Below, piece after piece: positions 26,900 through 63,487 of a DNA stretch of 64,000 nt. Location: IMG/VR virus record IMGVR_UViG_3300003322_000327, positions 45,606 to 109,605 of that record. One strand, given 5' to 3'. The position numbers and the translations under genes were made by a program. This stretch comes from a virus. Position 1 is the first letter of the stretch. Each line of letters opens with the position of its first letter. The notes beneath the pieces are model-generated. The model did no database searches. It was not told the origin of the DNA and saw only the letters and a program-made list of their open reading frames with translations.

Positions 26900-27199
26900 A
26901 TGCAACTGCAGGCAAAAGCACGACTCCAGGCTAGCGCGAACCAAGAGGACGTACTCGAGGTCGCGCTTCAACGCCAGGGTCTTTCATACACCAAGGTCGA
27001 TGACAGGACCTTCAAGATCAAGCGTGTGGATCAAGCCAGTGCACTCGCCTCACTTTTGAGGCGCATCGTCGAGCACTTCGACAAGGATGAAGGTGCGTAC
27101 CTGGACCATGGGCCCGAAGGCTATCGGATCTTCAATCCCAAGTCGGACTGGCGCCTGACGACCGACAACGGTGAGCTTCTTGTCAAGCGGGTGAAGTGA
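26900..27199 (+). CDS. Shared-peptide (CTS-like) unknown protein
   Basis: 99 residues from ATG 26900, chosen over the adjacent ATG 26897 by alignment with sister proteins. The N-terminus MQLQAKARLQA is a copy of the recurring peptide. The remainder is a small alpha/beta domain (LEVALQRQGLSYTKVDD). Probably packaged in the head if the peptide is a capsid-targeting sequence. Overlaps the next gene by one base. Confidence 0.7.
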   Translation: MQLQAKARLQASANQEDVLEVALQRQGLSYTKVDDRTFKIKRVDQASALASLLRRIVEHFDKDEGAYLDHGPEGYRIFNPKSDWRLTTDNGELLVKRVK

Positions 27200-27627
27200 T
27201 GCCAACACCGTACATCAAGAAGCTCTCGAAAGAGGGCAAGGGTTCGGTCCCAAGTCTCGAAAAGAAATGGGATCGAGCCAAGGACGCTGCGGCAAAGCAA
27301 GGTCACAGCAAGGACTACGGGTACGTCACCAACATCTTCAAGAGCATGTCACACGCAAGTCTCAAACTCCAGGCCAAGTCGAGGCTGCAAGCGACCGAGT
27401 ACATCCCCGACACGAAGAAGCTCGCGGAGTGTCACATCGAACGCTGGTACGATCGTTCGATCCGCAGCTGGACGGTTGTCCTCAAGGACAAGGACGACAA
27501 CCAGGTCGGTGACAGCATCGTCGTCGGCACACAGGGCGAAGCCAAGAAGATCACGAAGGACAACCCGGCGTTCAACGTCCGGGACTTCGATGCCGAAAAC
27601 GCACTCCGCTACAGGAAGAAGTCATGA
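27199..27627 (+). CDS. Unknown protein with internal CTS-like peptide
   Basis: 142 residues. Residues 1-50 form a charged helical module (YIKKLSKEGKGSVPSLEKKW ... DYGYVTNIFKSM) of a kind I associate with T4-like phage proteins. The shared peptide LKLQAKSRLQA follows at 54-64, and then a C-terminal domain of about 75 residues. Either the module and tagged protein are fused, or translation can also begin at the internal ATG (27346, MSHASLKLQAKSR). No strong ribosome site is seen before 27199. Function unknown. Confidence 0.65.
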   Translation: MPTPYIKKLSKEGKGSVPSLEKKWDRAKDAAAKQGHSKDYGYVTNIFKSMSHASLKLQAKSRLQATEYIPDTKKLAECHIERWYDRSIRSWTVVLKDKDDNQVGDSIVVGTQGEAKKITKDNPAFNVRDFDAENALRYRKKS

Positions 27628-28592
27628 AACTCCAAGCCAAGAGCCGCCTGTTGGCGATGACGCTGACCGGCCCGCAACGCGACCGCATCATCCAGTCACT
27701 GATCGACAGCGAAGAGCTGTCGCCGAACGACGATCCGCACTCGATGTCGGACGACGAGCTGGTTCGCGAGTACAAGCGCATCCACCACGTCCCGGACAAC
27801 TGGGAGCCGTCCATGCTACTCGCATCCGCAGGTCGTGACAGCTTCAATGTCAAGGTCAGCTATGACGATCCGACCGGCAAAGGCATCGCCTCGACCTCGG
27901 TTCTGATCAGAGACTGCACCGATGCTGAACAAGCGCGTCGACTCTTCAACGAGCGCTACAAGCATCACTACAAGAACCCCAAGATCACGAGCGTGATCAA
28001 GGTCAAAAACCTTCAGGCCGATGCCGGTCTCGAGCGCTGGCTCCACGAGATGGCCGATATGCACGGCGCTCAAGGCAATGACGAGGACGGCCGTGCCACG
28101 GTCATGGATGCGCTGCGCAAGAGTCGCGATCGCAATCCGGTGATCATCGTCGTCGGCGATGGGACCCCGAAGCACGTGTTCACGCTCGGCCCGTCGAACC
28201 AGATCGCGACCGACAGCCTGCACGGCCTGTACGACGACGCGCGCACCTACAAGTGCGAGTACGGCGGCAAGCGCTGCGAGTTCAGGACCCTGGCGGTCAT
28301 CGATGTAGATGACTTCATGGACCACTACTCATCGGTGCATGCGTCGAAGACGCAGCCGGGTCACAAGCCCATGGAAGCCGCATCAGCCATCGGCGCCGAC
28401 TTGAAGAATGCGATCACGAGCGTGGTCGTCCGAACTCTGAAGGTCCCAACCCCGAAGGACAAGGTGATCACCAAGGTGCTGGCCGACCCGACGGTCAAGA
28501 ACTACATGAAGGCAACCGGCGCTGGCGAAGAGCTCGTCAAGACCTACGCTGCGCGCGTCTGGGACGAGTTCGAAGCTGCCGTCGACCACTGA
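27624..28592 (+). CDS. Shared-peptide (CTS-like) unknown protein
   Basis: 322 residues starting MKLQAKSRLLA, overlapping the previous stop (ATGA). The rest is mixed alpha/beta with a possible zinc site (CEYGGKRCEF followed by HYSSVH, about 211-239), resembling a C2H2 finger. The C-terminal 75 residues are helical. No family assigned. Likely virion-internal by its N-terminus. Confidence 0.7.
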   Translation: MKLQAKSRLLAMTLTGPQRDRIIQSLIDSEELSPNDDPHSMSDDELVREYKRIHHVPDNWEPSMLLASAGRDSFNVKVSYDDPTGKGIASTSVLIRDCTDAEQARRLFNERYKHHYKNPKITSVIKVKNLQADAGLERWLHEMADMHGAQGNDEDGRATVMDALRKSRDRNPVIIVVGDGTPKHVFTLGPSNQIATDSLHGLYDDARTYKCEYGGKRCEFRTLAVIDVDDFMDHYSSVHASKTQPGHKPMEAASAIGADLKNAITSVVVRTLKVPTPKDKVITKVLADPTVKNYMKATGAGEELVKTYAARVWDEFEAAVDH

Positions 28593-29868: not shown

Positions 29869-30321
29869 ATGGAGCTACAAGCAAAACAAAGGTTGATGGC
29901 AACGAAGCTACCGTCGTGGGCTGAAAGGAAAGCTCAGTCCACGATTTGGTCTCTAGTTCAAGGCGGCAAGTTGACCGGTCGGCACACAGTCAGTCTCACT
30001 TCAGATCGTGAGCCGACCTGGAAGGTTGAACCCGACGGTGTCATCGATGTCCGCATTCCTCGCCAGTACTTCGATGCGTGCAAGCGTCTTAACGCTGGTT
30101 GGGCTCTTCTGCATTCTGTGCAGCATGAGCTATGGGAAGCGAAGGTCGCGATCAACCTGGCGCGCAAGCAGTATCCGTCGATGAGTCCTTACGTTGCAGC
30201 TGAGAACAAGCAGCACCTCGGTGGTGAAGCTCATGCTCTGACTTGTGAAGAACTCGACGGCTTGACCTCAGACGAATACGACAAGCAACTCCAGCTCGAG
30301 TATTCATACCTTGGACTCTGA
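29869..30321 (+). CDS. Shared-peptide (CTS-like) unknown protein
   Basis: 150 residues from ATG 29869, starting MELQAKQRLMA. The open frame extends left over the previous gene and is ignored there. The central part is alpha-helical and contains SVQHELWEAKVAINLARK. No family recognised. Confidence 0.68.
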   Translation: MELQAKQRLMATKLPSWAERKAQSTIWSLVQGGKLTGRHTVSLTSDREPTWKVEPDGVIDVRIPRQYFDACKRLNAGWALLHSVQHELWEAKVAINLARKQYPSMSPYVAAENKQHLGGEAHALTCEELDGLTSDEYDKQLQLEYSYLGL

Positions 30322-30322
30322 C

Positions 30323-30922
30323 ATGGAACTCAAAGCTGCACAGAGGCTTCAAGCCTCGACATTCATGCCCGATCGACTGGTCATGATCGACTGCGAGATG
30401 ACCGGCCTCGATCCGAAGGCCGATGACCTGATCCAGATCGCGGCCATCAAGCTGGAGCTGCAGGGCGATCAGTACATCGAGACCGGACCGGATCTCAACT
30501 TCTTCATCCACACCGACAAGCAGCCTGCGTCCGAGTTCGCGCGCAAGTACATGAGCGACGTCTACAAGCAAGCAAACGAGTCGACCGTCGACTACGTGCA
30601 AGCGAAGGCAATCCTCGACTCGTGGCTCGGAGACTGGAAGGGCGAGGTCAGCCCATGCGGCGACTGCGTGCCCACCGACGTGCTCTTCATGTACATGAAG
30701 GGCGTCATCGGTCTCTCCAGGTACGAGGGCGATACTCCAGTCAAGGGCACCTTCCACTACGAGTACTTCGATATGAACGCCATCAAGGCGCTGGCCCGTC
30801 AGAAGAAGGGCTACAAGTTCGACAAGGAACTCGAGCGCCTACCTGGTGATCACGATGCGCTGGTCGACTGCCGCAACCAGCTCGTGGAAATGAACGCCAT
30901 CATCAAGGTCCTGCTCTCATGA
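30323..30922 (+). CDS. DEDDh exonuclease (oligoribonuclease-like) with CTS-like peptide
   Basis: 199 residues. After MELKAAQRLQA the sequence enters a DEDDh exonuclease: Asp23 and Glu25 in MIDCEMTGLDP, a middle Asp, and His177/Asp182 in GDHDALVDC. This is the layout of oligoribonuclease, which degrades 2-5-base RNA and some DNA. The N-terminal peptide is absent from ordinary oligoribonuclease and matches the shared peptide, which suggests packaging in the head and injection with the DNA. The alternative start is ATG 30311, four residues earlier. Confidence 0.82.
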   Translation: MELKAAQRLQASTFMPDRLVMIDCEMTGLDPKADDLIQIAAIKLELQGDQYIETGPDLNFFIHTDKQPASEFARKYMSDVYKQANESTVDYVQAKAILDSWLGDWKGEVSPCGDCVPTDVLFMYMKGVIGLSRYEGDTPVKGTFHYEYFDMNAIKALARQKKGYKFDKELERLPGDHDALVDCRNQLVEMNAIIKVLLS

Positions 30923-32160: not shown

Positions 32161-32703
32161 ATGCTGCTCGTCGCCGAAACTCTGACTCAGTATCTGACGC
32201 GCCTCAGCCAGGACTTGAAGATCAAGATGGCTGGCCGTGGAGCGTACTCTGTGGTCTTCGACTACCCGCCTGATCGGGACATCGTGGTCAAGGTCAGCGC
32301 CGGCGATCGATCGTATCTGCAGTTCATCCAGTTCTGTAGGCTCAACGAAGGCAACCGTTGGCTCCCTCAGGTCCTCGATGTCCACAAGCTGGAAGTCGAG
32401 GATCAGGACGAGGTGTGGGCGGTCTTCCTCCAGCGCCTGACGCCTGCGTCTGCGATCCAGGTCAACAACGCATTCAAGACCGAGATCGCACCATGGGTCA
32501 CGGACTTCACGGTCTACTCAGACAGGGCTCGACTCTCGTTCCCCGAGTGGAAGAATGTGATGCGCATGGCCTCGGACCCGCAGACCCGCAAACTCGCGCT
32601 CTTCCTCATCACCCACTTCAATCGGTTGGACCTGCTGACGCAGAATTTCATGATGCGTGGCTCCCAGCTCGTGTTCAACGACCCTCTGAGTCCGATCACA
32701 TGA
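32161..32703 (+). CDS. Compact protein-kinase-fold protein
   Basis: 180 residues. A glycine loop GRGAYSVVF (25-33), a VAIK-like Lys44 (IVVKV), a hinge-like AVFLQRL (87-93) and a catalytic-loop-like RLDLLTQN with Asp157 and Asn162 (spacing of five, as in kinases) are visible. NDPLS follows with Asp174 in the place of the DFG Asp. All key polar residues are kept although the protein is far smaller than a normal kinase. It may phosphorylate a protein or small molecule, or be a pseudokinase. It overlaps the next, shared-peptide gene as ATGA. Confidence 0.65.
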   Translation: MLLVAETLTQYLTRLSQDLKIKMAGRGAYSVVFDYPPDRDIVVKVSAGDRSYLQFIQFCRLNEGNRWLPQVLDVHKLEVEDQDEVWAVFLQRLTPASAIQVNNAFKTEIAPWVTDFTVYSDRARLSFPEWKNVMRMASDPQTRKLALFLITHFNRLDLLTQNFMMRGSQLVFNDPLSPIT

Positions 32704-33200
32704 AACTCCAAGCCAAGCAGCGACTGATCGCGAGGCAGGATGCGACCTCGGCCTTCGATCCTGGTCTCATAGAGCGCATGACGCCGGTTGACTACAAGTC
32801 GAGGTACAAGCTCGTGAACATGAGCATCCGCGACTTCCTCAAGATGGCGCGTCCTGGTCACGACAAGGTCAAGGAGCGCGACGTCAAGGATCTGGTGAAG
32901 AAAGGCGTCAAGTTCAACTCGGTGCCTTTCCTCACCTTCGATGCCAACGGTGACGATGATGCACGAGTCACTGGCCACGAAGGTCGCCATCGTGCGCGCG
33001 AACTCCAGGCTCAAGGCTACACGCACATGCCGGTCGAACTCCGTGGTCCGATTCGCTGGTCGGAGCAGGCTGATCCGAAGCGCTTCGACTACCGTGAGTC
33101 GTGGCCTGAAGTCCTAGTCTCGGAAGACGGTACCGACTACATCCCATTCCCTGTTCCACGGGAAGAGGCCACCCATCCATACAAGCCGGTGACATCATGA
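32700..33200 (+). CDS. ParB/sulfiredoxin-like domain protein with CTS-like peptide
   Basis: 166 residues beginning MKLQAKQRLIA. Residues about 77-115 contain PFLTFDANGDDDARVTGHEG and RHRARELQAQGYTHMPVEL, which resemble the GHEGRHRA block of ParB/Srx-like domains in phage proteins. ParB-type domains bind or cut nucleic acids or hydrolyse nucleotides, but activity here is unproven. Translationally coupled to the kinase-fold gene. Confidence 0.6.
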   Translation: MKLQAKQRLIARQDATSAFDPGLIERMTPVDYKSRYKLVNMSIRDFLKMARPGHDKVKERDVKDLVKKGVKFNSVPFLTFDANGDDDARVTGHEGRHRARELQAQGYTHMPVELRGPIRWSEQADPKRFDYRESWPEVLVSEDGTDYIPFPVPREEATHPYKPVTS

Positions 33201-33399: not shown

Positions 33400-34140
33400 A
33401 TGACGCACAAAGAACTCAGGGCCGCGATGCGCCTCACTCTCTTCGCTGAATTCAATGCGGTCGATCCGAACCGTGTGGTTCCGAATCACGACGGCTCTGA
33501 CCATCAGTTGCGCGTCGCTCTCGACAAGCTCGATCGGATGAACGATCGCAGGGCCAACTTCCCGGAAGAAGGTGCCGACGTCGGCTCCATGACCAGGCCT
33601 GAAGGCGAGCTCTTTCCGTACTCGGTGAACGTGGCTGCAGGCATGAACCCGGACGGCACGATCAAGGTCAAGACCATGGAAGTCAAAGCTGCATCGATCG
33701 AAGACGCAATGCGCATCGCGACCCAGATGAATGCGGGCCGTGAGACAGGCTACGGCGCTGGTGTCCTGCTCTTCAGTCGCAAGACCGGCCGGTTCCTGTT
33801 CGTCAAGCGCGGTCCGAACGGCGACGAGCCTGGCACCTGGTGTACGGGTGGCGGTGGCGTCGAACCTGACGAGACCATCGAGCAGGCCGTGCGGCGTGAG
33901 AACCAGGAAGAGCTGGGATTCGACGGCGAATACGAGCTGATCCACATGGATCGTCAGGCGAGCCCAGGCTTCGTCTTTCACAACCACATGGCTGTCATCG
34001 ATGACGAGTTCGAGCCCGTGCTCAACGACGAGCACACCGAGTACAGGTGGTGTGAGCCGGACCAGATTCCGGAGCCACTCCATCCCGGCCTCAGGCTTGC
34101 TCTCTCCAACTGGATGAAGCGGCAAGGAGTAAGCGAATGA
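33400..34140 (+). CDS. Nudix hydrolase with N-terminal extension
   Basis: 246 residues. The Nudix box GGVEPDETIEQAVRRENQEE plus LG (about 151-172) fits G-x5-E-x7-R-E-x2-E-E-x-G, so hydrolysis of a nucleoside diphosphate-linked substrate is expected; the substrate cannot be read. About 115 residues precede the Nudix domain. The start MTHKELRAAMRLTLFA resembles a degenerate copy of the shared peptide (compare MELKAAQRLQA), so it may also be a head cargo. Confidence 0.85.
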   Translation: MTHKELRAAMRLTLFAEFNAVDPNRVVPNHDGSDHQLRVALDKLDRMNDRRANFPEEGADVGSMTRPEGELFPYSVNVAAGMNPDGTIKVKTMEVKAASIEDAMRIATQMNAGRETGYGAGVLLFSRKTGRFLFVKRGPNGDEPGTWCTGGGGVEPDETIEQAVRRENQEELGFDGEYELIHMDRQASPGFVFHNHMAVIDDEFEPVLNDEHTEYRWCEPDQIPEPLHPGLRLALSNWMKRQGVSE

Positions 34141-42317: not shown

Positions 42318-42617
42318 ATGGCTACGCGACGCCCCACCTTCACTCGCCGCCGTGCCAACGGCACTGCCCGCATCAAGCGCGACTCATACTCGAACTCGAC
42401 GACAAGCTGGTGGGACATTCGCAAGGAAGTCTTCGAGCGTGACGACAAGAAGTGTCAGTCTCGAATCGGTGGTCGTCCTTGCCTCAAGCCCGGAGTCGAT
42501 GTGCATCACATCATTCCGTTGTCGAGAGGCGGTACGACCACCAAAGGTAACCTCATCACGGTGTGCGAAGCCTGCCATCAAGCACGGCATCGTCACCAGC
42601 TGAAAGGACGACCATGA
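42318..42617 (+). CDS. HNH endonuclease
   Basis: 99 residues. The HNH core is DVHHIIPLSRGGTTTKGNLI (about 62-81) followed by CEACHQARH, with C-x-n-C pairs (CQSRIGGRPC) giving the zinc site. The N-terminus is basic. It may be a free-standing homing endonuclease or a terminase-associated nuclease; the terminase is not nearby. The start lies in an unusual AATTTTATG context with no clear ribosome site. Confidence 0.88.
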   Translation: MATRRPTFTRRRANGTARIKRDSYSNSTTSWWDIRKEVFERDDKKCQSRIGGRPCLKPGVDVHHIIPLSRGGTTTKGNLITVCEACHQARHRHQLKGRP

Positions 42618-42721
42618 AACTCCAAGCCAAGACCAGGCTCCAGGCCACCATCGGGCACATCGACAAGATGGCCAACTTCGCCGAGCAAGCCAAGGGCTGG
42701 AATCACAAGGGCACGAAATGA
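42614..42721 (+). CDS. 35-residue CTS-like mini-protein
   Basis: A reading frame of 35 residues starting MKLQAKTRLQA, with ATGA overlaps on both sides (HNH stop at its start, next gene's ATG at its end) and AAAGGACGACC as ribosome site. The shared peptide is a third of the protein; the rest (TIGHIDKMANFAEQAKGWNH plus KGTK) is a short helix. Exact overlaps and the conserved DNA start make translation likely. Possibly a packaged peptide. Confidence 0.6.
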   Translation: MKLQAKTRLQATIGHIDKMANFAEQAKGWNHKGTK

Positions 42722-43332
42722 ATCTCCAAGCGAAGCAACGCCTGCTGGCGTCCTCAACCATCGACCCGGATGCGCAACCGCGTCAGGCCGACAACGCACT
42801 GCCGGTTTCCGTCGGCGCCGGAGTCGATGACGATTCGAAGACCGTGATCGAAACCGAACTCGGTGACGCGCGTCGAGGTCTCGAACGTGCCAAGGCTCAG
42901 GGCCACACCGACTCGGTGACCGCCTACGAGAACCTGATCACCGAACTCGAGAAGGCGAACAGTCCGGTCATCGCCAATGACACGTCAGACATGGGCTCGC
43001 TGCCGATGTCGAATCCCGCGGATTCGCCGCTCGGTGATCCCGACACGGATGCCGAGCGTGTGGACAACATGATCGTTGGCGAAGAGCAGCCGTGTCTGAT
43101 CCAGCCGGAGCCGGGACCCGAAGATGTGCTCAAGCTCGACACGACGGCCAGCACCGAAGACCCGATCTCCGATGGCGCCGCCTACGACATGCTGATCGAC
43201 GGCGAGTCGGAAGAGGAAGCCGGTGAGCCCGTGGTGCAGGAGGTGACGAACAACGACGGTTCGATCGAACCCGATCCGACGCAGCCACTGCTGATCGACG
43301 ACGTTTCCGCCGGCCCACCCGTCATCAAGTAG
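42718..43332 (+). CDS. Acidic CTS-like unknown protein
   Basis: 204 residues starting MNLQAKQRLLA, then a very acidic, low-complexity body (many D, E, P, S; few aromatics), probably disordered apart from a helix at about 55-85 (DARRGLERAKAQGHTDSVTA). Acidic internal proteins are common in phage prohead cores. The nearby ATGA overlap couples it to the 35-residue gene. Confidence 0.7.
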   Translation: MNLQAKQRLLASSTIDPDAQPRQADNALPVSVGAGVDDDSKTVIETELGDARRGLERAKAQGHTDSVTAYENLITELEKANSPVIANDTSDMGSLPMSNPADSPLGDPDTDAERVDNMIVGEEQPCLIQPEPGPEDVLKLDTTASTEDPISDGAAYDMLIDGESEEEAGEPVVQEVTNNDGSIEPDPTQPLLIDDVSAGPPVIK

Positions 43333-50277: not shown

Positions 50278-51078
50278 ATGACTGGTCCGCGCTTTCCGCG
50301 TCAATACTTCTCGCAGGTGGAGCGCAAGGTCCAAGCTGAAGCCGAGCCTCAAGCCGAGGCTCCGGCTCAGCCGCTGATCCAAGGTCTCGGCCGTTCGGAC
50401 GAGCGTGCTGTCGATGGCGAGAAGGAACCCTCAGTCATCGAGCGCGTCGACTTCGAGTCGTGGCTGCCCTTCGCTGCGAAGACGTACCACATCAGTCCCC
50501 GTATCGAGGACTATGTTTTCAAGAACATGCCGATCTGTCCTTCGGACTTCCCGAATCGGAACGGCATCGCATTCCCGCTGCAGGAGCTCGTGCAGTTCCT
50601 GCCGCCTCCGATGAATCGCCAGGTCTTCAAGGCCTGGCAAGGCTGCCCAGTTCACCTCGAGCACGACAACGAAGACTGCACCAAGGCGTACGGTGTTGTC
50701 TTCGACACGAGCCTAAGCAAGATCCATGGCTACGGTCAAGGCAAGCACTGGAAGGTCATGGGCCTCATCGGAGTCGACAAGACCAAGTACCCGGAGATCG
50801 CGCAGGAAGTCCTGGACGGCAAGATCATCACGGGCTCGATGGGCGCCTTGGCAGACAGGTTCACGTGCTCGGTCTGCGGCCGCGAAGCCACCGAGAACAA
50901 GTTCATGAACTGCAACCACGTTGGCTCCACGAAGGAAGTCAATTGGAAACTCGTGGACTACATGGGCCAGCAACACATCGCGTACCTGAATGCGCACGGC
51001 CTCAGCCCGATCGAGTACAGCCTGGTGCGCGACCCTGCCTGGGTTGCTGCTCTCTCCGATCACATCATGGCATGGTGA
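50278..51078 (+). CDS. Prohead maturation protease
   Basis: 266 residues. His126/His129 in CPVHLEHDN and Ser187 in KIITGSMGALAD fit the His-Ser layout of herpesvirus/T4 gp21/HK97-type prohead serine proteases, and gene order (protease, scaffold, capsid) agrees. A C-x2-C at 197-200 (CSVC) plus CNH at 212-214 forms a probable zinc finger just after the catalytic Ser, an unusual insert. Residues 1-50 are a Pro/Ala/Glu-rich leader that may be self-cleaved. It probably trims the scaffold, capsid and tagged internal proteins. Confidence 0.75.
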   Translation: MTGPRFPRQYFSQVERKVQAEAEPQAEAPAQPLIQGLGRSDERAVDGEKEPSVIERVDFESWLPFAAKTYHISPRIEDYVFKNMPICPSDFPNRNGIAFPLQELVQFLPPPMNRQVFKAWQGCPVHLEHDNEDCTKAYGVVFDTSLSKIHGYGQGKHWKVMGLIGVDKTKYPEIAQEVLDGKIITGSMGALADRFTCSVCGREATENKFMNCNHVGSTKEVNWKLVDYMGQQHIAYLNAHGLSPIEYSLVRDPAWVAALSDHIMAW

Positions 51079-51083
51079 ACATC

Positions 51084-51434
51084 ATGAACAAGTTGCAAGC
51101 GAAGGCCCGTCTGCTGGCCGACAAGGTCGTTCAAGCTTCCAAAGTGGTGTGGGACTCCACGTTCCACAAGCTTTGGACGGATACCAATGGTGTTTACAAC
51201 ATCAAGACCAAGGAAGCTGGGCAAGCTCAAGTCCGCATCATGGGCAACCAAGGCGACGAAGACGAAGAGCTGCTCAATCAACTGAGCAAGAAGTACAAGA
51301 CCGGCAATCTCCAGTCCGGTGTTCCCAACATCGAGATGGAGATCGGCGGCGAAAACGTGCTTCTGACTTGGGACGAAGCGTACAACCTCGGCTATGCGCT
51401 GATGCGTAGCGCAGAGATAGCCTACTACGGCTAG
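51084..51434 (+). CDS. Shared-peptide (CTS-like) unknown protein
   Basis: 116 residues from ATG 51084 starting MNKLQAKARLLA, 5 bases after the protease gene; GTG 51075 is an alternative start. A compact alpha/beta body ends in an acidic helix (LTWDEAYNLGYALMRSAEIA). Its place between protease and scaffold supports a prohead-internal role for the tagged family. Confidence 0.7.
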   Translation: MNKLQAKARLLADKVVQASKVVWDSTFHKLWTDTNGVYNIKTKEAGQAQVRIMGNQGDEDEELLNQLSKKYKTGNLQSGVPNIEMEIGGENVLLTWDEAYNLGYALMRSAEIAYYG

Positions 51435-51506
51435 ACTGACTCCGCGAAAATGACATCGTTGGGACGAGCCGGTGACGGAGGGTCAACGGTTCGCAGAGGA
51501 GTCCGA

Positions 51507-51920
51507 ATGAAAGCGCATATTGAGGCTCTAGATCAGTCTCAACGTGCGTACCTCGGAGCTCTGCTCGCAGCAACGCGACCAGGTTCCGAACCGCACTTGA
51601 CTGCGGGTGATAGCCGGCTACCGACCGCGCGTTACCTTGCTGCCAATCGCGACCGGTTGATGGATGCTGACCTCGTTCTGGTCGGCTACAGCTACAGCGA
51701 TCCATTACCCGTTCACTGCTTTGTACAGGCTAAGACAGGCCAGCGCCTCTTTGACTCGAACCGTGTGTGCAAGCTCACTGATCGTAGTTACGAGTGGCCA
51801 ACCTGGCTCGGCATGACCATCAAAGGCGTAGTACTGGCGCGCATCAGCGTCAGGCACCTGCTCGGGGATTTCGTTCTACTCACGGCGCTCGAGGAAAGAA
51901 AGAGGCGTCGAACCGATTAG
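51507..51920 (+). CDS. Unknown protein, possible moron
   Basis: 137 residues from ATG 51507 (AGAGGAG upstream). Codon third positions look less G/C-biased than neighbours, judged by eye. No domain recognised; the C-terminus is basic (EERKRRRTD). Together with the next gene it interrupts the expected protease-scaffold adjacency, so late acquisition is possible. Confidence 0.55.
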   Translation: MKAHIEALDQSQRAYLGALLAATRPGSEPHLTAGDSRLPTARYLAANRDRLMDADLVLVGYSYSDPLPVHCFVQAKTGQRLFDSNRVCKLTDRSYEWPTWLGMTIKGVVLARISVRHLLGDFVLLTALEERKRRRTD

Positions 51921-51929
51921 TGGAGTGGT

Positions 51930-52406
51930 ATGTTCAAGTCAGTCATCAACTTCGGCCTTGCATTCGGTGTGCCGCTCATGGCGGCAGTCTTCACCGCAGT
52001 GATCTGTCAGTTCATCCCAGAACTTCCGTTGCCACCCGGCTCGAAGTTCTACGCGGATGTCGGCCTAGAGTGGATCACGGCCATACGAGTCCTCGGGTTC
52101 ATATGGCTCAGCCTGTGCCTACTTGTCGTCACCGCCGTGCATCAGCGCGACGTGGCGAACCGCAGGTCATTGGCGCTGAAGCGCAGGTGCACAGCACTCG
52201 CAAACTTCTTCGCCACGTTCGCTTCGTGGTCGCTGACTTTTCCAGGCATCATTCTTTTCGGTGGCGACTGGAACATTGCTTCCTGGGTCTTCGGTTTCTT
52301 CACATCGGCAAGTGCGGTATACACCTGCTACGTGATGATCACCACGGAGTCATTGGTCAAGTCGCTGATTGGCGACATCAGAGAAACAAGTCAGACCCCG
52401 ATCTGA
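51930..52406 (+). CDS. Four-helix membrane protein
   Basis: 158 residues. Hydrophobic segments at about 8-28, 47-68, 88-110 and 113-135 suggest four transmembrane helices, joined by a basic cytoplasmic loop (HQRDVANRRSLALKRR). It ends at a terminator. No family recognised. A membrane-acting role such as superinfection exclusion or lysis control is a guess from topology. Confidence 0.6.
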   Translation: MFKSVINFGLAFGVPLMAAVFTAVICQFIPELPLPPGSKFYADVGLEWITAIRVLGFIWLSLCLLVVTAVHQRDVANRRSLALKRRCTALANFFATFASWSLTFPGIILFGGDWNIASWVFGFFTSASAVYTCYVMITTESLVKSLIGDIRETSQTPI

Positions 52407-52410
52407 GCAC

Positions 52411-52442
52411 AAGGGCCGGTCACGCAAGTGGCGCGGCCCTTT
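52411..52442 (+). terminator. Rho-independent terminator
   Basis: Stem AAGGGCCG (52411-52418) with CGGCCCTT (52434-52441), closed by an inner CAC-GCAA-GTG hairpin, then TTA. It lies 4 bases after the membrane protein stop and isolates the head genes that follow. Confidence 0.75.
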
Positions 52443-52510
52443 ACTTCGCCCTCACGATCCGGTGACCACCCCGTTTTGGACTAAAAGTTGCACCCACCAT
52501 TTTTATTTTG

Positions 52511-52526
52511 CGGGCCGAAAGGTCCG
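52511..52526 (+). other. GNRA-capped hairpin in scaffold leader
   Basis: CGGGCC, tetraloop GAAA and GGTCCG form a 6-pair stem. It lies 79 bases upstream of the scaffold ATG, in a leader without a gene, next to a larger stem-loop at 52540. Confidence 0.5.
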
Positions 52527-52539
52527 GAAACGCCGAGTA

Positions 52540-52575
52540 GGTTAGACTTTGTGGACTAGTACACAGTGTCTAGCC
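52540..52575 (+). promoter_or_regulatory. Long stem-loop upstream of scaffold gene
   Basis: The arms 52540-52553 (GGTTAGACTTTGTG) and 52562-52575 (CACAGTGTCTAGCC) pair at 13 of 14 positions with two G-T pairs; the loop is GACTAGTA. No U tract follows, so it is not a normal terminator. It lies 30 bases before the scaffold ATG and may control stability or translation of the abundant head mRNA. Confidence 0.55.
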
Positions 52576-52604
52576 AACTCATTACCTTAACGAAGGAGTG
52601 CTCA

Positions 52605-54092
52605 ATGACCAAGCAACTGCGAGCCGCTGCTTCGACCACGATGACTCACGACGGCAACGATCTGAATCTCAAGGTCGAACAGGGTGACGCCGGTCTCGAA
52701 AACTCGCAGGAACCGATGGGCCTCATCGATCCCGCGAGCCTCGATTCCGGTTTCACGCACTCGGACGAAAAGCCGACGATGCCCGGCATGAAGGCCAAGG
52801 CGCCGACGACCGCGGGCACCAAGGCCGACAAGCCGAAGGTGGAAGCCAACGGCGCGATGTCGGAACCGCTCAAGGATGAAGAGATTCCTCCGGGCGGCAA
52901 GATCGCCGAGATGGACAACGAACAAGACCCGGCCGTGGGCTACCTGAACAAGGAAGCCGACATGCCCGTCATCAACAACGCCAGCGTGGAAGACGACGCG
53001 CCGCCTCCGGGTTCGGAGATGGACGACGACGCCGAACCGGAAGCCGACCTCGAAGCCACGACCGACGACAACGGCGCCGGCGAGTTCGACGACCTGCCCG
53101 GCATCGAAGCGTCGGACGAAGGCGATGACGACTCGGAGTTCGAGGACCTGGAACCGGAAGCGCCGATGCCCGAAGCGTCGTCCGCCATGGAACCCAACGC
53201 GAGCCCGACCGAGGAAGTCGCCGAGTTCGAAGCAGCTCCGCCGTCCGACGAAGAGCAGCCTCTCGTCGACGTCGACGAAGTGCCCGACAACGAAGGCTCC
53301 GAAGACCTGGTCTTCGCCGCCCTGGGCAACAGCGTCCACGTGATCCGCAGCAACCGCATCATCGCCTCGATGGGTCCGGCCTCCGCGCGCAAGCTCGGCG
53401 TCCAGGACGTGTTCCAAGGCGAACAGTACGAAGCCGTGGTCGCGCACGCGATCGACACCAAGGGCCTGCGCAAGGGTCTGGTGCAGCAAGGTTTCGTCCT
53501 GGCCAAGGTCAAGATGACGGCCTCCAAGGCCACGTCGAAGATCGTGAAGGCCAAGGTCGAAGCCGGCATGAAGGACAAGCTCGAAGCCATCGCCAAGCAG
53601 AACAAGGCGATGGAACAGAGCCTGGCCATCGCAGCCGTCGGCATCAACAAGCAGTACTGGAAGGACGTCCCGAACGAGCTGAAGGCCAGCCTCATCACCG
53701 AGCTGGAACAAGCCGGCGTTCGCGGTGCCAAGCGCCTGGTGTCCTCCGTGTTCGCGTCGCATGGCGTGAGCTACGCGCGTCAGATCCTGGCCCTGGCTCA
53801 GCGCATCGCGGCCATGCCCGAAGAAGTCCGTGACAACCACGCCGAGAGCCTCGACATGACCAGCGATGGTGATTTCGATGACGACGACATGGTCGAATCG
53901 GGCGCCGAGTGCATGGACGGCGAGCCGGTCAACGAGTTCGAGGAGTTCGAGACGGAAGTTCCCGCTTCCGTGACGGCCGCCCTCGCGAACCCGATGCACC
54001 GTCGCGTGAGCCAGACCAAGATGATCGCCGGCGTGAAGGACATGCAAGGCGTCAACAGCTTCCTGTACGGCGGTCGGTCGCTCATCGGCTGA
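52605..54092 (+). CDS. Prohead scaffold (core) protein
   Basis: 495 residues from ATG 52605 (GAAGGAG 8 bases upstream). Residues 1-230 are very acidic and low-complexity. Residues 235-400 form an ordered, helical, lysine-containing part (KATSKIVKAKVEAGMKDKLE). The acidic C-terminus ends in a small Gly-rich stretch. Acidic helical protein directly between protease and capsid is the scaffold (T4 gp22) position. The start MTKQLRAAAS has an L-R-A that could be a cleavage site. Confidence 0.72.
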   Translation: MTKQLRAAASTTMTHDGNDLNLKVEQGDAGLENSQEPMGLIDPASLDSGFTHSDEKPTMPGMKAKAPTTAGTKADKPKVEANGAMSEPLKDEEIPPGGKIAEMDNEQDPAVGYLNKEADMPVINNASVEDDAPPPGSEMDDDAEPEADLEATTDDNGAGEFDDLPGIEASDEGDDDSEFEDLEPEAPMPEASSAMEPNASPTEEVAEFEAAPPSDEEQPLVDVDEVPDNEGSEDLVFAALGNSVHVIRSNRIIASMGPASARKLGVQDVFQGEQYEAVVAHAIDTKGLRKGLVQQGFVLAKVKMTASKATSKIVKAKVEAGMKDKLEAIAKQNKAMEQSLAIAAVGINKQYWKDVPNELKASLITELEQAGVRGAKRLVSSVFASHGVSYARQILALAQRIAAMPEEVRDNHAESLDMTSDGDFDDDDMVESGAECMDGEPVNEFEEFETEVPASVTAALANPMHRRVSQTKMIAGVKDMQGVNSFLYGGRSLIG

Positions 54093-54129
54093 TCAGTCCG
54101 GAATTTCCCAACCTCATCACGGAGTCAAC

Positions 54130-54816
54130 ATGCTCTACCTGCCTCTCTCGAAGTTCCCGGACAGCGCCGAAACCATCGTCGCGACCGGCGCCTCCATCAC
54201 CGCCGAAGGTGCCGCCCTGGTGCGCGCCGCCGGTGCCACCGCCTCGGGCGTGACCATGTCGCAAGGCACGAGCGGCGAAATCTTCGCCGGCTTCTCGATC
54301 GCCGCGACGTCGGCCGCCGCCTTCCAGGCCGCGTACCAGACCAAGGTCGAGAAGTTCGTCGTGCCCTCGTCGGGCTCGGTGCAACTGGCGCAGACCCCGG
54401 TCAGCGGCCAGGTCTTCATCTACGACCAGACCGCGGGCGCCGCGGTGGCGATCTCCGGTGGCGTCAGCGTCACCGGCAACGTGGTCGCGGGCCTCACCGC
54501 CGGCAACACGGTCCTGATCACCTACAAGTATGCCCTGTCGGTCCAGCAAGCCCGCACCATCCAAGGTGACGTGCAGCCCGGCGGCTACATCGGCGACTAC
54601 ATCGGCCAAGTCGGCCTGATCAAGCGCGGCCTCATCTTCACCGACATGTACGACGCGTCGAAGGACTGGTCGAACGTCGGTGCGAACGGCATCCTCCTGG
54701 GCGCCGGCGGCATCCTGACGACCAGCGGTTCGGGCTCGGCCCTGACCGGTGCCTACGTCGTGTCGCTGCCGAGCCAGGAAGTCCCCTTCCTCGGTCTCGA
54801 GTTCAGCGCCGCCTGA
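54130..54816 (+). CDS. Probable capsid accessory or decoration protein
   Basis: 228 residues with CGGAGTC before the ATG. Ala/Gly/Thr/Ser-rich and beta-rich, with no signal peptide. It sits between scaffold and major capsid genes and has highly biased codons like the capsid gene, suggesting high expression. A head decoration or vertex-associated protein is likely; the family is not recognised. Confidence 0.6.
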   Translation: MLYLPLSKFPDSAETIVATGASITAEGAALVRAAGATASGVTMSQGTSGEIFAGFSIAATSAAAFQAAYQTKVEKFVVPSSGSVQLAQTPVSGQVFIYDQTAGAAVAISGGVSVTGNVVAGLTAGNTVLITYKYALSVQQARTIQGDVQPGGYIGDYIGQVGLIKRGLIFTDMYDASKDWSNVGANGILLGAGGILTTSGSGSALTGAYVVSLPSQEVPFLGLEFSAA

Positions 54817-54860
54817 TCGGTCGTCGACTGAAGCCAACCACCTTTCAGGAGAAACTCAAC

Positions 54861-55922
54861 ATGCAACGCATCACCGCCAACGTCCGCCCGGCCAAGTCGC
54901 CCGTGCTGGCCACCGAGCTGAAGCTCGCCGGTTCCAACGAGCTGGCCGTCGGCCGCAACGGCGAACTGAACGCCTCGTCCAAGCGCGACCTGCTCGAACA
55001 GCAGCGCAAGTTCCTGACCGCGGCCTCGCAAGGCAACATGCTGGCCATCAGCCGTCAGGAATCGCGTGACCTGGTCCAGGCCGCCTTCAACAGCCCGGAA
55101 GCGCACCGCGTCCTGGGCGAGAAGATCAGCGAGAGCCTGTACATCACGGCGAACCGTCAGGGCTTCATGCGCAAGTACCTGGCCCGGATCGACGTGGAGA
55201 TCGGCAGCGTGCCGCGCTTCCCGCTGCGCAACAAGAACGTGACGGCCGTGTGGTCGACCAGCCCGACCAAGGTCGAGTCGCAGATCACGCGCGACAAGTG
55301 GTTCACGCCGCCGGAACTGACGGTCGTGGCCCGCCCGTTCATCCCGCAGGTCGAACTGAACCAATCCAGCGGCGACGTGCTGCAGGAGAAGTACATCGAG
55401 GCCGTGGAAGCCACGATGGTCGCCGAGGACCGCCTGTACTACAACCAGCTGCAGAAGCTGGTCGGCGTCGACAACAACCTGACCATCGTGTCGGGCCAGC
55501 TGACGCCGTACAGCCTCATGACCGTCGTGACCAACGTCACGCGCTGGGGCCTCAAGGGCGCCCACCTGCTGATGGCGACGGACCTGTGGCAAGACGTGGT
55601 CGGCAACTCCGACTTCTTCCAAGCCATCGATCCGGTCGCGCGTCACGAGCTGCTGCTCACCGGCGAGCTGGGCACGATGTACGGCATGACCGTGACGTCG
55701 GACGCGTTCCGTCACCCGGAACACAAGGTCCTGGGCCAGGGCGAGTTCTACGTGATCTCGGACGCGCTGAACCACGGCGCGTACTCGGATCGCGGCGGCA
55801 TCCAGTCGACCCCGATCGACATCTCGATCGAGAAGATCCCCGGCCGCGGCTTCGTCCTGCACGAAGCCCTGGCGGTGTCGGTCGCGAACAGCCGTTCGTT
55901 CGCCAAGGGCTATCGCCTGTAA
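54861..55922 (+). CDS. Major capsid protein
   Basis: 353 residues with CAGGAGAAACTC before the ATG. It sits downstream of protease and scaffold and has the strongest codon bias seen, as expected for a highly expressed gene. The first 55 residues are polar/helical, like a removable delta domain, with L-N-A (36-38) and L-T-A (52-54) as candidate cleavage points. The body has PELTVVARPFIPQVEL and a C-terminal YGMTVTSDAFRHPEHKVL typical of HK97-fold capsid A-domains. No vertex paralogue is seen in the window. Confidence 0.78.
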   Translation: MQRITANVRPAKSPVLATELKLAGSNELAVGRNGELNASSKRDLLEQQRKFLTAASQGNMLAISRQESRDLVQAAFNSPEAHRVLGEKISESLYITANRQGFMRKYLARIDVEIGSVPRFPLRNKNVTAVWSTSPTKVESQITRDKWFTPPELTVVARPFIPQVELNQSSGDVLQEKYIEAVEATMVAEDRLYYNQLQKLVGVDNNLTIVSGQLTPYSLMTVVTNVTRWGLKGAHLLMATDLWQDVVGNSDFFQAIDPVARHELLLTGELGTMYGMTVTSDAFRHPEHKVLGQGEFYVISDALNHGAYSDRGGIQSTPIDISIEKIPGRGFVLHEALAVSVANSRSFAKGYRL

Positions 55923-56014: not shown

Positions 56015-56479
56015 ATGACCAAGCCGATGAAGTACAACCGCACGCTCGACTGTGTCGCGCTGGCCATTCAAGCGTTCACGCGTGACGGGGACGAAGTCCT
56101 GGCCGCGCGACTGTTCGCCAAGGCGATGGCCCAGCCCGACGTGCAGGCCGCGATGGACACCATCGAAGCCAGCAACCGCTACGCGTTCTCGCAGCTGCAA
56201 GCCTCACGGGCCGCGGCCACGAAGACCGAAGCGGGCGACAAGTCGACGCCCAAGGCCCGCGTCAAGGCTTCCGAAGAGGAAGCCGAGATGCCGACCGAGA
56301 AGCCCGCCGAAGAGAAGGAAGCCGAGATGCCGGTCGAGGCCGACGCATTCGACGGCGACCCGCTCGACGACGTGGTCGAGGAAGAGGAAGAAGTCGTGGA
56401 ACCTGCCGAGCCCGTCGTGGCCGGCAAGCGCATGGCCGAAGTCCTGTCCTCGATGAAGAAGGCACGCGACGGCAAGTGA
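56015..56479 (+). CDS. Unknown protein with acidic C-terminus
   Basis: 154 residues with AAGGAGTTCGAG before the ATG. A helical N-terminal 70 residues (RLFAKAMAQPDVQAAMDTIE) is followed by a disordered acidic region with repeated EEAEMPTEKP/EKEAEMPVEA units. Located right after the capsid gene, so a head-internal or head-completion part is likely. Confidence 0.6.
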   Translation: MTKPMKYNRTLDCVALAIQAFTRDGDEVLAARLFAKAMAQPDVQAAMDTIEASNRYAFSQLQASRAAATKTEAGDKSTPKARVKASEEEAEMPTEKPAEEKEAEMPVEADAFDGDPLDDVVEEEEEVVEPAEPVVAGKRMAEVLSSMKKARDGK

Positions 56480-60668: not shown

Positions 60669-60911
60669 ATGAAGCTCGAAGCCAAAGCCCGGCTTCTAGC
60701 CGCTGATCAGAATGTCATGTTGCACGTCAAGTACGTGTTCCAGGCCATTCATCAGGCGGAAGCACAACTGAACTCGATCAAGCCCCTGGTCGAATCGGAG
60801 CCGAGCAAGCTCACGGTCCTGGCCAAGCTCAACCTCGAGTTGTCGAAGCTGCGTGAGCTCTTCGATGCCGAGATGCCTCAACTCTACGAAGACAAGGAAC
60901 AGCAGCCATGA
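60669..60911 (+). CDS. Shared-peptide (CTS-like) small helical protein
   Basis: 80 residues beginning MKLEAKARLLA, with AAAGGA upstream. The rest is a helical hairpin (AIHQAEAQLNSIKPLVESE, LNLELSKLRELFDAEM), coiled-coil prone. Overlaps the next gene by ATGA. Confidence 0.7.
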   Translation: MKLEAKARLLAADQNVMLHVKYVFQAIHQAEAQLNSIKPLVESEPSKLTVLAKLNLELSKLRELFDAEMPQLYEDKEQQP

Positions 60912-61237
60912 AGCTCCTTGCCAAGAGCCGCCTGCTCGCCCTTCAAGACATGAAGACTCTGGGGCACAAGGTGCTTGACGTCCTGGTCGACACCTTTCCG
61001 ACCGAAGGCTTCGAGCTCACGCGTCACAGTCCACAAGAGATCCGAAGCAGCGGACACCTCACGGACGGCATGTTCAAGATCGCAGGTCGCGACCTCAACA
61101 AGCTGGTGTTCTCGCACCTGGGCTACAAGGTCGAGGACAAGGGCAAGTCCATCAAGTGGACGAAGCACGGCGAACCGATCTGGTTCATGGTCCACGTCGG
61201 TGGCAAGGTTCACGTCTACGAGCAAGGCGAGGACTGA
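60908..61237 (+). CDS. Shared-peptide (CTS-like) unknown protein
   Basis: 109 residues beginning MKLLAKSRLLA. Alpha/beta body (VLVDTFPTEGFELTRHSPQE ... HVGGKVHVYEQ). ATGA overlap with the preceding gene; the next tagged gene starts one base after its stop. Confidence 0.7.
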   Translation: MKLLAKSRLLALQDMKTLGHKVLDVLVDTFPTEGFELTRHSPQEIRSSGHLTDGMFKIAGRDLNKLVFSHLGYKVEDKGKSIKWTKHGEPIWFMVHVGGKVHVYEQGED

Positions 61238-61238
61238 G

Positions 61239-61463
61239 ATGAAGCTCCAAGCTCGATCAAGACTCAAGGCGGACGAGGTCAACACCAAAGACCGTCCGCC
61301 TTCGACCTACCTGGACGAGGCCGAAATGGATCATGCGATGCCGGACGGAAGTGCGGCGCCTGGTCCGATCGGAATGGGTGTTGGGCTTGGAGCCGCACAA
61401 CGGCTGCTGAGCACCAGCCCCATGTTCGGTAGTCCTGGCATGGAAGCGTACGAAACCCTGTGA
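61239..61463 (+). CDS. Shared-peptide (CTS-like) small protein
   Basis: 74 residues from ATG 61239, beginning MKLQARSRLKA. The remainder is Gly/Met/Pro-rich and probably disordered (GPIGMGVGLGAAQRLLSTSP). It is little more than the peptide plus a flexible tail. Confidence 0.65.
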   Translation: MKLQARSRLKADEVNTKDRPPSTYLDEAEMDHAMPDGSAAPGPIGMGVGLGAAQRLLSTSPMFGSPGMEAYETL

Positions 61464-62165: not shown

Positions 62166-63131
62166 ATGCAGCTTCAAGCACGTATGCGCCTCCTGGCCAC
62201 GGAGGCCGAGGATGTGACCTACGAGCAGTACGCAGCAGTCGTTGCTTCCCTGGCGCACGACCCGCACAAGCTGCAAGCCTTCGACTTTCAAGTGCCTGGT
62301 GCGCTGAAGAAGCTGTGGTCAGAGCTGAAGGAAGTCGGCCAACTCCTCAAGGACTCGGCGGGAATCGGCTGGGACGCGATCGTCCAGGCCTTCAAAGAGA
62401 AGTCGGTGTTCACGTTGCTCAAGGGTGTCGGCTTCTCGCTCTCCAAGCTCATGACCGCAGTGCGCAAGGCCATGGCGCTGCCTGCAGCTGCCGTGTTCCA
62501 GGCCTTCGATGATCTGGTTGACACCTTCGGGTCCGCTCAGATGCTGCAGAAGCTGGACGTACACGAGCGGATCAAGAAGCTGGACGAAGTGATCCATCGC
62601 CATCCGGTCCTGACCAAGGTGACGGGCATCGCAGTCGCAGGCTTTCTCGTCTGGGCCTTCCTCCACGGTTCGACCGTGGGAGACATGGACTACGATCTAG
62701 GCGTCGTCGAGGCAGTCATCAGCTGCATCAAGGGCGACTTCGATCTGGCAGACATGTTTGCCTCCAAGAAGGGCCTGCGCGACATCTCGGTGCTGCTCTT
62801 CGGACTCGCAACCGGCGGCATCGGCATCACAGCCTACGGAGCCTCGCACGTCGAGCCGATGCTGAAGTTCCTGGGCTCTCACGCGGGTCAAGCCAGTTCG
62901 ATGATGATCGCTCTCTTCTACGCAGCAGCGAAGAAGCTCGGCCTCCACATCGACTACTCCGGGATGCCGAGGCCAATGACCGCATCTCTGGTGACGGACC
63001 CGAAGGCGCCACACGGTCGAAGCCACAAGTGGTTCCACGCGCTGCCGTACAAGGAGCGCAAGGCCTACATCAAGCGCTACCCTGGCACCAAGTTCGGGTC
63101 CGAACATAGCATCATCCTTCCGAAAGCCTGA
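62166..63131 (+). CDS. Shared-peptide (CTS-like) membrane-prone protein
   Basis: 321 residues beginning MQLQARMRLLA. The body is helical with hydrophobic helices near 153-170 (VTGIAVAGFLVWAFLHG) and 210-225 (DISVLLFGLATGGIGITAYG). The C-terminus is basic (SHKWFHALPYKERKAYIKRY). If it is injected with the DNA, such helices could help DNA cross the inner membrane (inference). Confidence 0.7.
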   Translation: MQLQARMRLLATEAEDVTYEQYAAVVASLAHDPHKLQAFDFQVPGALKKLWSELKEVGQLLKDSAGIGWDAIVQAFKEKSVFTLLKGVGFSLSKLMTAVRKAMALPAAAVFQAFDDLVDTFGSAQMLQKLDVHERIKKLDEVIHRHPVLTKVTGIAVAGFLVWAFLHGSTVGDMDYDLGVVEAVISCIKGDFDLADMFASKKGLRDISVLLFGLATGGIGITAYGASHVEPMLKFLGSHAGQASSMMIALFYAAAKKLGLHIDYSGMPRPMTASLVTDPKAPHGRSHKWFHALPYKERKAYIKRYPGTKFGSEHSIILPKA

Positions 63132-63133
63132 TC

Positions 63134-63487
63134 ATGAAACTCCAAGCCAAGTCACGTCTGCTCGCTGCCGGTCCCGGGGAAGCGATGGAGGCGCTGGTGC
63201 GCGACGCCTACAACTACGTTCAGAGTCTCGGACTGAAGACAAGCAATCGATCGCCCGATGCCCTCACATACCGTATTGCATTCAAGGTCAACATGACTCT
63301 CGAAGCTGCGGAACAAGTGTTGGAACGTCACTTTGGCAAACCCGAACGAGTGTACGAGGACCCCATCAAGCACTACATCAGTCGCACTTGGGACACGGAT
63401 CGTGCGCAGGGTCGAAGCATCACTCTCAAAAAGGTACGTGGGAACCTGCAGGTAGTCCTGTTGCAGTTGAGTGCCCGCAAGACCTGA
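63134..63487 (+). CDS. Shared-peptide (CTS-like) unknown protein
   Basis: 117 residues beginning MKLQAKSRLLA, 2 bases after the previous gene. Small alpha/beta domain (MTLEAAEQVLERHFGKPERV), reminiscent of the tagged protein at 26900 in size and layout. Function unknown. Confidence 0.7.
   Translation: MKLQAKSRLLAAGPGEAMEALVRDAYNYVQSLGLKTSNRSPDALTYRIAFKVNMTLEAAEQVLERHFGKPERVYEDPIKHYISRTWDTDRAQGRSITLKKVRGNLQVVLLQLSARKT

Follow-up and report, generated by a model that had tools for sequence, protein, structure and literature searches.

What does a predicted head-maturation protease cut when many of the proteins encoded around it carry the same short, alanine-ending motif? The question is raised by a 64,000-nucleotide stretch of viral DNA (bases 45606-109605 of IMG/VR record IMGVR_UViG_3300003322_000327, which has 109,605 bases in total; hereafter the window), where a protease gene at 50278 is followed by genes for a putative scaffold and the major capsid protein, and where 12 open reading frames (ORFs) of at least 74 residues start with M-x-(x)-L-x-A-x-x-R-L-x-A, variants of MKLQAKxRLLA that we call tags. 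An initial annotation had proposed that this protease cuts after L-x-A. Our sequence comparison points to a shared Ala-ending rule in tags, scaffold and capsid, with two amendments (P3 to P1 being the residues before the predicted cut, P1' the one after it). P3 is aliphatic rather than strictly Leu, since relatives often have Val or Ile there and R-I-x-A replaces R-L-x-A in the tags of one record (G014). P1' is also part of the signal: 53 of 93 tags have A, S or T at this position, against a background of 21% in the same proteins. We consider it likely that the enzyme serves head maturation in a relative of the jumbo phages, that it cuts the scaffold, the capsid protein, a small core protein and the tags after aliphatic-x-Ala, with A, S or T favoured at P1', and that the tagged proteins are packaged in the head.

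The head genes of the window are nearest to those of BcepSauron and BcepSaruman (capsid identity 68.5%) and then Motura (55%), all jumbo phages; more distant relatives are PhiXhv, GR7B, Peetri, Lu11, PaBG and an Erwinia/Dickeya group. We gathered 66 related loci from IMG/VR and ranked 120 ORFs of the record for the motif. Whole-ORF ranking of this type left out the scaffolds of Lu11, which spans a stretch boundary, and of PaBG, BcepSauron and Motura, which were probably removed by the overlap filter; values for these four come from separate scans. Pfam assigned no family to any of 10 head proteins, and eight of 10 window proteins from the tagged or tag-like set had no family above the cut-off.

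The protease, the putative scaffold and the capsid protein

All 27 protease sequences compared share His126, His129 and Ser187, the putative catalytic residues, along with the three Cys and the His of a zinc-finger-like C-C-C-H insert. An AlphaFold2 (AF2) model built from these 27 sequences has a predicted local distance difference test score (pLDDT) of 80, and its best VIA-align match is T4 gp21 (5jbl_B; Z 9.3, root-mean-square deviation 3.1, 130 residues), with the proteases of human cytomegalovirus (HCMV), Epstein-Barr virus (EBV), herpes simplex virus 1 (HSV-1) and Kaposi's sarcoma-associated herpesvirus (KSHV) at Z 5-6.4 and unrelated rows at 4.8 or less. Plain Foldseek of the model against the PDB gave no match below E 0.001, and searching PDB sequences with a profile built from the aligned proteases returned only weak coronavirus nsp3 rows, judged unrelated. 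By the fold of its model, the protease belongs with the maturation proteases of the T4 gp21 and herpesvirus type, a group that we take to be clan SH. The N-terminal extensions of the proteases contain aliphatic-x-Ala in 24 of 25 cases (18.5 expected, P 0.002), the window having only VQA↓E (the arrow marks a predicted cut), which faintly hints at self-cleavage. The protease of one relative (G008; L057:1039-3021) is split by an intein with a LAGLIDADG endonuclease, adjoining the invariant C-P-x-H region of the putative active site (Pfam LAGLIDADG_3 9.3e-10, Hint_2 3.7e-08, Intein_splicing 3.7e-06).

The acidic protein encoded between the protease and the capsid protein is, judging from this position and from its composition, presumably the scaffold; a PHROG label of 'ATPase' on it is unsupported by Pfam. 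It begins MTKQLRA-AA, as annotated initially, at an ATG at 52605, and its frame opens earlier with a GTG at 52566. The further claim that literal L-x-A marks both scaffold and capsid fails on its own evidence because the motif occurs at chance frequency in both (4 against 3.9 expected from shuffling in the scaffold, 3 against 3.1 in the capsid), and we rejected the literal rule. An unbiased scan of the scaffold, varying the P3 class, the P1 residue and the P1' class jointly and comparing the counts with shuffled sequences, was topped by aliphatic-x-A↓S, and its next four rows were the same motif with other P1' classes. No Glu-ending motif is among these top five, and as a sequence pattern the Glu at P1 of a T4 gp21-type rule is absent. 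The form [LIVMF]-x-A-[AS] occurs 10 times in the scaffold against 2.9 expected, a count reached in 0 of 1000 shuffles, and places it first of the 120 ORFs; in the same test the sheath, helicase and ribonucleotide reductase stayed at chance level. The second-ranked ORF encodes a small charged protein, and 36 different ORFs downstream of the capsid gene, a few of which are not homologues, together hold 128 copies of the motif against 53.5 expected. Two additional C-terminal sites present in the scaffolds of many relatives are absent from that of the window. The N-terminal parts of the PhiXhv-15, GR7B and Peetri scaffolds (L007:6195-8186, L008:6662-8128 and L009:6609-8129) carry CxxC pairs like those of zinc ribbons.

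In the capsid protein the LNA at residues 36-38 and the LTA at 52-54 pointed out in the initial annotation are indeed present, and all 35 aligned capsids have Ala at both 38 and 54. [LIVM]-x-A-[AST] occurs three times within the first 60 residues (0.4 expected, P 0.003). At the 52-54 site P3 is Leu in 23 capsids, Ile in five, Val in four and Met in three, P2 takes six different residues and P1' is Ala in 24, Ser in 10 and Asn in one, so that in this alignment LTA↓A has the profile expected of a substrate. P2 of the 36-38 site is Asn in all 35 capsids, and LNA↓S may therefore also be conserved for another role. The predicted cut would remove 15.0% of the mass after residue 54 and 20.5% after residue 74; the PaBG capsid protein loses about 20% of its mass during maturation (PMC7412058). 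We prefer the cut after 54, with that after 74 as a possible alternative. An AF2 model of the capsid protein (pLDDT 69) was too poor to locate the cut. The capsid protein of phage G (structure 6wkk) is a match (E 1e-11) whose gene starts at about residue 60 of the window protein, and the propeptide is thus wholly absent there.

These alanines might instead be structural, packing helices within the propeptide and the scaffold, and the true rule might be a different one, such as a cut after Glu as in T4. The T4-like head proteases described in the accessible part of the literature all cut after Glu, and the invariant Asn37 beside Ala38 would suit a structural role. The scaffold scan, topped by aliphatic-x-A↓S with no x-E motif, speaks against it, as does the retention of Ala54 while P2 is free and P3 conservative. 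The scaffold points the same way: 82% of 33 different scaffolds retain the site in a poorly conserved linker. Apart from this site and the one at 456-458, the retained aliphatic-x-Ala triples lie in better conserved, probably folded regions. We regard purely structural alanines as an improbable explanation.

N-terminal tags in the window and in related records

Across 13 records we counted 93 strict tags among 117 looser matches, against 10 loose matches in all in a reversed-sequence decoy. When P1 was left free in ten related records, Ala stood at its usual position in 84 of 127 tags. The remaining 43 allow a comparison between a cut site and a helix: 31 of them regain aliphatic-x-Ala within 16 residues (for example MKLQAATRLQVTA, then A; and MKIEAAMRIQSRKVTA, then A), against 99 of 385 control windows in the same proteins (26%), and after removal of near-copies the figure is 28 of 39. 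Tags that have the usual Ala show a second site at the background rate (22/84). A few of these 43 probably do not represent real tags and so dilute the effect.

The tag could be nothing but a helix that targets or docks proteins to the scaffold, the portal or another compartment and is never cut, its final L-x-A lying on the face of that helix. A helix might well have a fixed Arg and two L-x-A units spaced by six residues, as the tag does, and in T4 an Asp at position 10 blocks processing and not targeting, so that the two functions are separable (PMC9026906). The sites regained at other distances would break the register of a helix and not a cut site, which favours cleavage over a mere targeting helix, and the bias of P1' towards A, S or T likewise speaks against a helix. 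An uncut helix thus seems to us a rather unlikely reading, one that is further weakened by the clade comparison below.

The tags might also address a destination other than the head, such as a replication compartment or a host target, their likeness to the capsid and scaffold sites being coincidental. In favour of this, a number of tagged genes are situated well away from the head genes (26.9-33.4 kb), the exonuclease with a tag and the Nudix protein with its tag-like start might act in the cytoplasm, and our search of openly licensed papers turned up no virion proteome of a tagged phage. Set against this, the tag end and the scaffold motif have P3, P1 and P1' in common and differ together between two clades; we give a non-head destination little credence.

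Within the window the tags end in LLA, LQA, LMA, LIA or LKA (Table 1). The statement that all tagged proteins keep L-x-A thus holds for the 12 ORFs, in part because the search pattern demands it. Synonymous codons vary freely among 11 tags compared, so it is the peptide itself that is conserved; an RNA or promoter element in the start region was rejected on the same ground. The Nudix protein (Pfam NUDIX E 3.2e-19) does start with MTHKELRA-AM, as reported before, and does so at 33400. A thirteenth tagged ORF of 35 residues (42614-42721) runs into the beginning of the tagged gene that follows it (42718) and may be a tag nearly without cargo. Several tagged proteins have a short motif in common, resembling W-F-x-x-L-x-x-x-Q-K-x-x-Y-I-x-x-H-P-x-S-K-Y, which may represent a common cargo domain; three proteins with it that were tested gave no Pfam family.

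Table 1. Features of the window and sites of the W-F...S-K-Y motif (L-numbers denote related loci; arrows mark predicted cuts).
Feature	Position	Strand	Basis or conservation
Tag MQLQAKARLQA, then S	26900..26932	+	tag-pattern match
Tag MKLQAKSRLLA, then M	27624..27656	+	tag-pattern match
Tag MELQAKQRLMA, then T	29869..29901	+	tag-pattern match
Tag MELKAAQRLQA, then S; RNase_T-type exonuclease	30323..30355	+	tag-pattern match, Pfam
Tag MKLQAKQRLIA, then R	32700..32732	+	tag-pattern match
Nudix protein start MTHKELRA, then AM; tag-like (LRAAMRL), usual end without Ala	33400..33423	+	
Tag MNLQAKQRLLA, then S	42718..42750	+	tag-pattern match
Predicted head-maturation (prohead) protease, 266 residues	50278..51078	+	phrog_18299 E 1.3e-76
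Tag MNKLQAKARLLA, then D; gene immediately 3' of protease gene	51084..51119	+	tag-pattern match
Scaffold-like acidic protein, 495 residues, many predicted cut sites	52605..54092	+	motif excess
Predicted cut LRA↓AA near scaffold N-terminus, residues 5-7	52617..52625	+	
Predicted cut VEA↓N, scaffold linker, residues 79-81	52839..52847	+	aliphatic-x-Ala in 82% of 33 scaffolds; mean local identity 0.24
Predicted cut VTA↓A, residues 456-458, 37 residues before scaffold C-terminus	53970..53978	+	82% of 33 scaffolds; local identity 0.41
Major capsid protein, 353 residues, N-terminal propeptide	54861..55922	+	phrog_2522 E 4.5e-88; 66 IMG/VR relatives
Possible cut VLA↓T, capsid propeptide, residues 15-17	54903..54911	+	[VILMF]xA in 94% of 35
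Possible cut LNA↓S, capsid residues 36-38	54966..54974	+	Ala invariant in 35; P3 I/L/V
Preferred predicted maturation cut LTA↓A, capsid residues 52-54	55014..55022	+	Ala invariant in 35
Alternative predicted maturation cut VQA↓A, capsid residues 72-74	55074..55082	+	97% of 35
Small charged protein 3' of capsid gene, candidate prohead-core substrate	56015..56479	+	second of 120 ORFs for motif
Tag MKLEAKARLLA, then A	60669..60701	+	tag-pattern match
Tag MKLLAKSRLLA, then L	60908..60940	+	tag-pattern match
Tag MKLQARSRLKA, then D	61239..61271	+	tag-pattern match
Tag MQLQARMRLLA, then T	62166..62198	+	tag-pattern match
Tag MKLQAKSRLLA, then A	63134..63166	+	tag-pattern match
W-F...S-K-Y motif, C-terminal part of ORF	62166-63131		
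W-F...S-K-Y motif	L155:16845-17780		
W-F...S-K-Y motif	L212:4623-5030		
W-F...S-K-Y motif	L116 near 15003		

A different predicted P3 in the Lu11 clade

The window-type tag is absent from Lu11, a member of a distant clade, where seven proteins start with MKIQLAVA↓G, MKIQLAIA↓T or similar and one further protein starts like MKVYLAIA↓A; N-terminal LA-x-A was found 10 times there against once in an offset control. The same change is seen in the scaffolds: AxA[SG] occurs 12 times in that of Lu11 (1.9 expected), 12 times in that of PaBG (2.0 expected) and seven and eight times in the two pieces of that of HRDY3 (0.7 and 1.2 expected), and none of the three is enriched for the window motif, AxA[SG] being at its expected level in the window scaffold (1 against 1.0). 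ATA↓S is found near the expected mature capsid start in Lu11 and HRDY3, and the GR7B scaffold likewise leans toward A-x-A↓S. Tag and scaffold thus appear to change their P3 jointly from one clade to the other, which is what a single enzyme reading both should produce, and it is this joint difference that counts against an uncut helix. Since Lu11, PaBG and HRDY3 are mutually related, they represent one switch and not three.

It is possible, though we hold it only tentatively, that the protease of this family keeps a herpesvirus-like Ala at P1 and that its P3 preference switched between clades, from aliphatic to Ala and perhaps to Ser in the Erwinia relatives, with the scaffold, the cargo tags and some of the capsid sites altered accordingly. 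If so, these phages would hold a natural record of protease-substrate co-evolution and a hint that Ala at P1 is older than the cleavage after Glu seen in T4 and phiKZ.

The scaffolds of Alexandra, Yen9-02 and NCTB (L012:6089-8119, L216:549-2630 and L217:737-2674) are enriched in S-x-S↓S/A/G and not in the Ala motifs, which may reflect a third rule or may be explained by Ser-rich acidic repeats; in 69 kb of the Alexandra sequence no S-x-S-ending tag was conspicuous. A 1524-residue ORF of PaBG (L232:7571-12145) contains aliphatic-x-A-[AS] 18 times against 6.4 expected.

Proposed processing scheme and comparison with known systems

Several observations weigh against cleavage after aliphatic-x-Ala as proposed here, beginning with the chance-level counts of literal L-x-A given above. 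The motif is weak in the BcepSauron scaffold, and 12 of the 43 tags without the usual Ala show no site within 16 residues. Three records (G011, G012 and G013) have none or one tag each, so the tag is not universal in the wider family. The Lu11 capsid retains FNA↓S, with an aromatic P3, despite the A-x-A rule, and no excess of N-terminal LA-x-A was found in PaBG. Conservation in the 35 capsids also extends to four aliphatic-x-Ala triples of the folded core, and for this reason conserved capsid alanines alone were rejected as proof of cleavage. No mature N-terminus or mapped cleavage site for a tag-bearing phage was found in the openly licensed literature. Finally, the related sequences are not independent, and all probabilities are therefore guides only.

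The motifs are conserved and vary together, and the protease model matches known maturation proteases in fold; from this we infer that the motif is cleaved, that the protease at 50278 is the enzyme responsible and that the tagged proteins are packaged. The protease would cut the scaffold within the prohead, at both ends and in the acidic linker, would remove an N-terminal capsid propeptide of about 54 (or 74) residues, would cut the small core protein adjoining the capsid and would clip the 11-residue tags. The first half of the tag (L-x-A-x-x-R) would act as the address that takes a protein to the prohead core, and the L-x-A at its end would be the point of clipping. About a dozen mature proteins would then stay within the head, presumably to be injected; their location there is suggested by the parallel with T4. 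If this is true, a one-line rule predicts the head-packed proteins of these large phages and the position of the cut in each, bearing on the 93 tagged ORFs in the 13 records, mostly of unknown function where checked. The T4-like head proteases described in accessible sources cut after Glu, and Ala would be a new P1 residue among them; the link between phage and herpesvirus maturation could then be tested in bacteria. Ready enzyme-substrate pairs for work on specificity are provided by the clade switch, and the tag could be used to load proteins into jumbo-phage heads. No Ala rule for phage head proteases was found in the openly licensed literature.

The herpesvirus assemblins cut at the consensus (V/L/I)-x-A↓S, a statement of which was not found in the openly licensed literature. 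As a sequence pattern the window motif has the aliphatic P3, the Ala P1 and the small P1' of this rule, and the window protease resembles the HCMV, HSV-1, EBV and KSHV enzymes in the fold of its model. The assemblins differ in being fused to the scaffold, whereas here protease and scaffold are encoded by separate genes, and herpesviruses are not known to have a capsid propeptide or cargo tags; the zinc-finger-like insert after the putative catalytic Ser of the window protease is a further difference. As predicted for the window scaffold, the HSV-1 scaffold is cut near its C-terminus, at the M site after residue 610 of 635 (PMC12474303).

Among phages, a comparison can be made with phage P1, its Pro protease and its DarB packaging signal, in which the N-terminal 30 residues suffice to direct cargo into the head; the P1 capsid protein gp23 is cut at E120/S121, and so after Glu, and a repeated family of short tags is undescribed in the accessible part of the source (PMC9024508). 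phiKZ, 201phi2-1 and SPN3US are, like the closest relatives of the window, jumbo myoviruses, with many cleaved head and ejected proteins and several sites per propeptide. They differ in that the cuts reported are all after Glu (S/A-x-E for the phiKZ protease; PMC9026906) and that most of their propeptides, with 111-254 residues in SPN3US, far exceed an 11-residue tag in length.

The closest parallel is with T4 gp21 and its substrates IPI, IPII and IPIII. T4 gp21 cuts after L/I-x-E, as the initial annotation had stated, and the T4 targeting peptide consists of the first 10 residues of IPIII, of which 4 and 7 act in targeting and 8 and 10 in processing (PMC9026906). In both systems an N-terminal peptide of about 10 residues has, or is predicted to have, a targeting and a processing half with an aliphatic P3, and several substrates, the scaffold and a capsid propeptide among them, are cut in T4 and predicted to be cut here (PMC9026906). 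The tags match a T4-like capsid-targeting sequence in being short, shared N-terminal peptides that end in the putative protease motif, and this end matches the scaffold motif in two clades. P1 is Glu in T4 and predicted to be Ala here, with P1' favouring A, S or T; the tag sequence is unlike that of T4, and it occurs on a larger number of proteins (12 in the window). The system we propose works like that of T4, with a protease of the same group by the fold of its model (Z 9.3), and is not T4-type by its rule.

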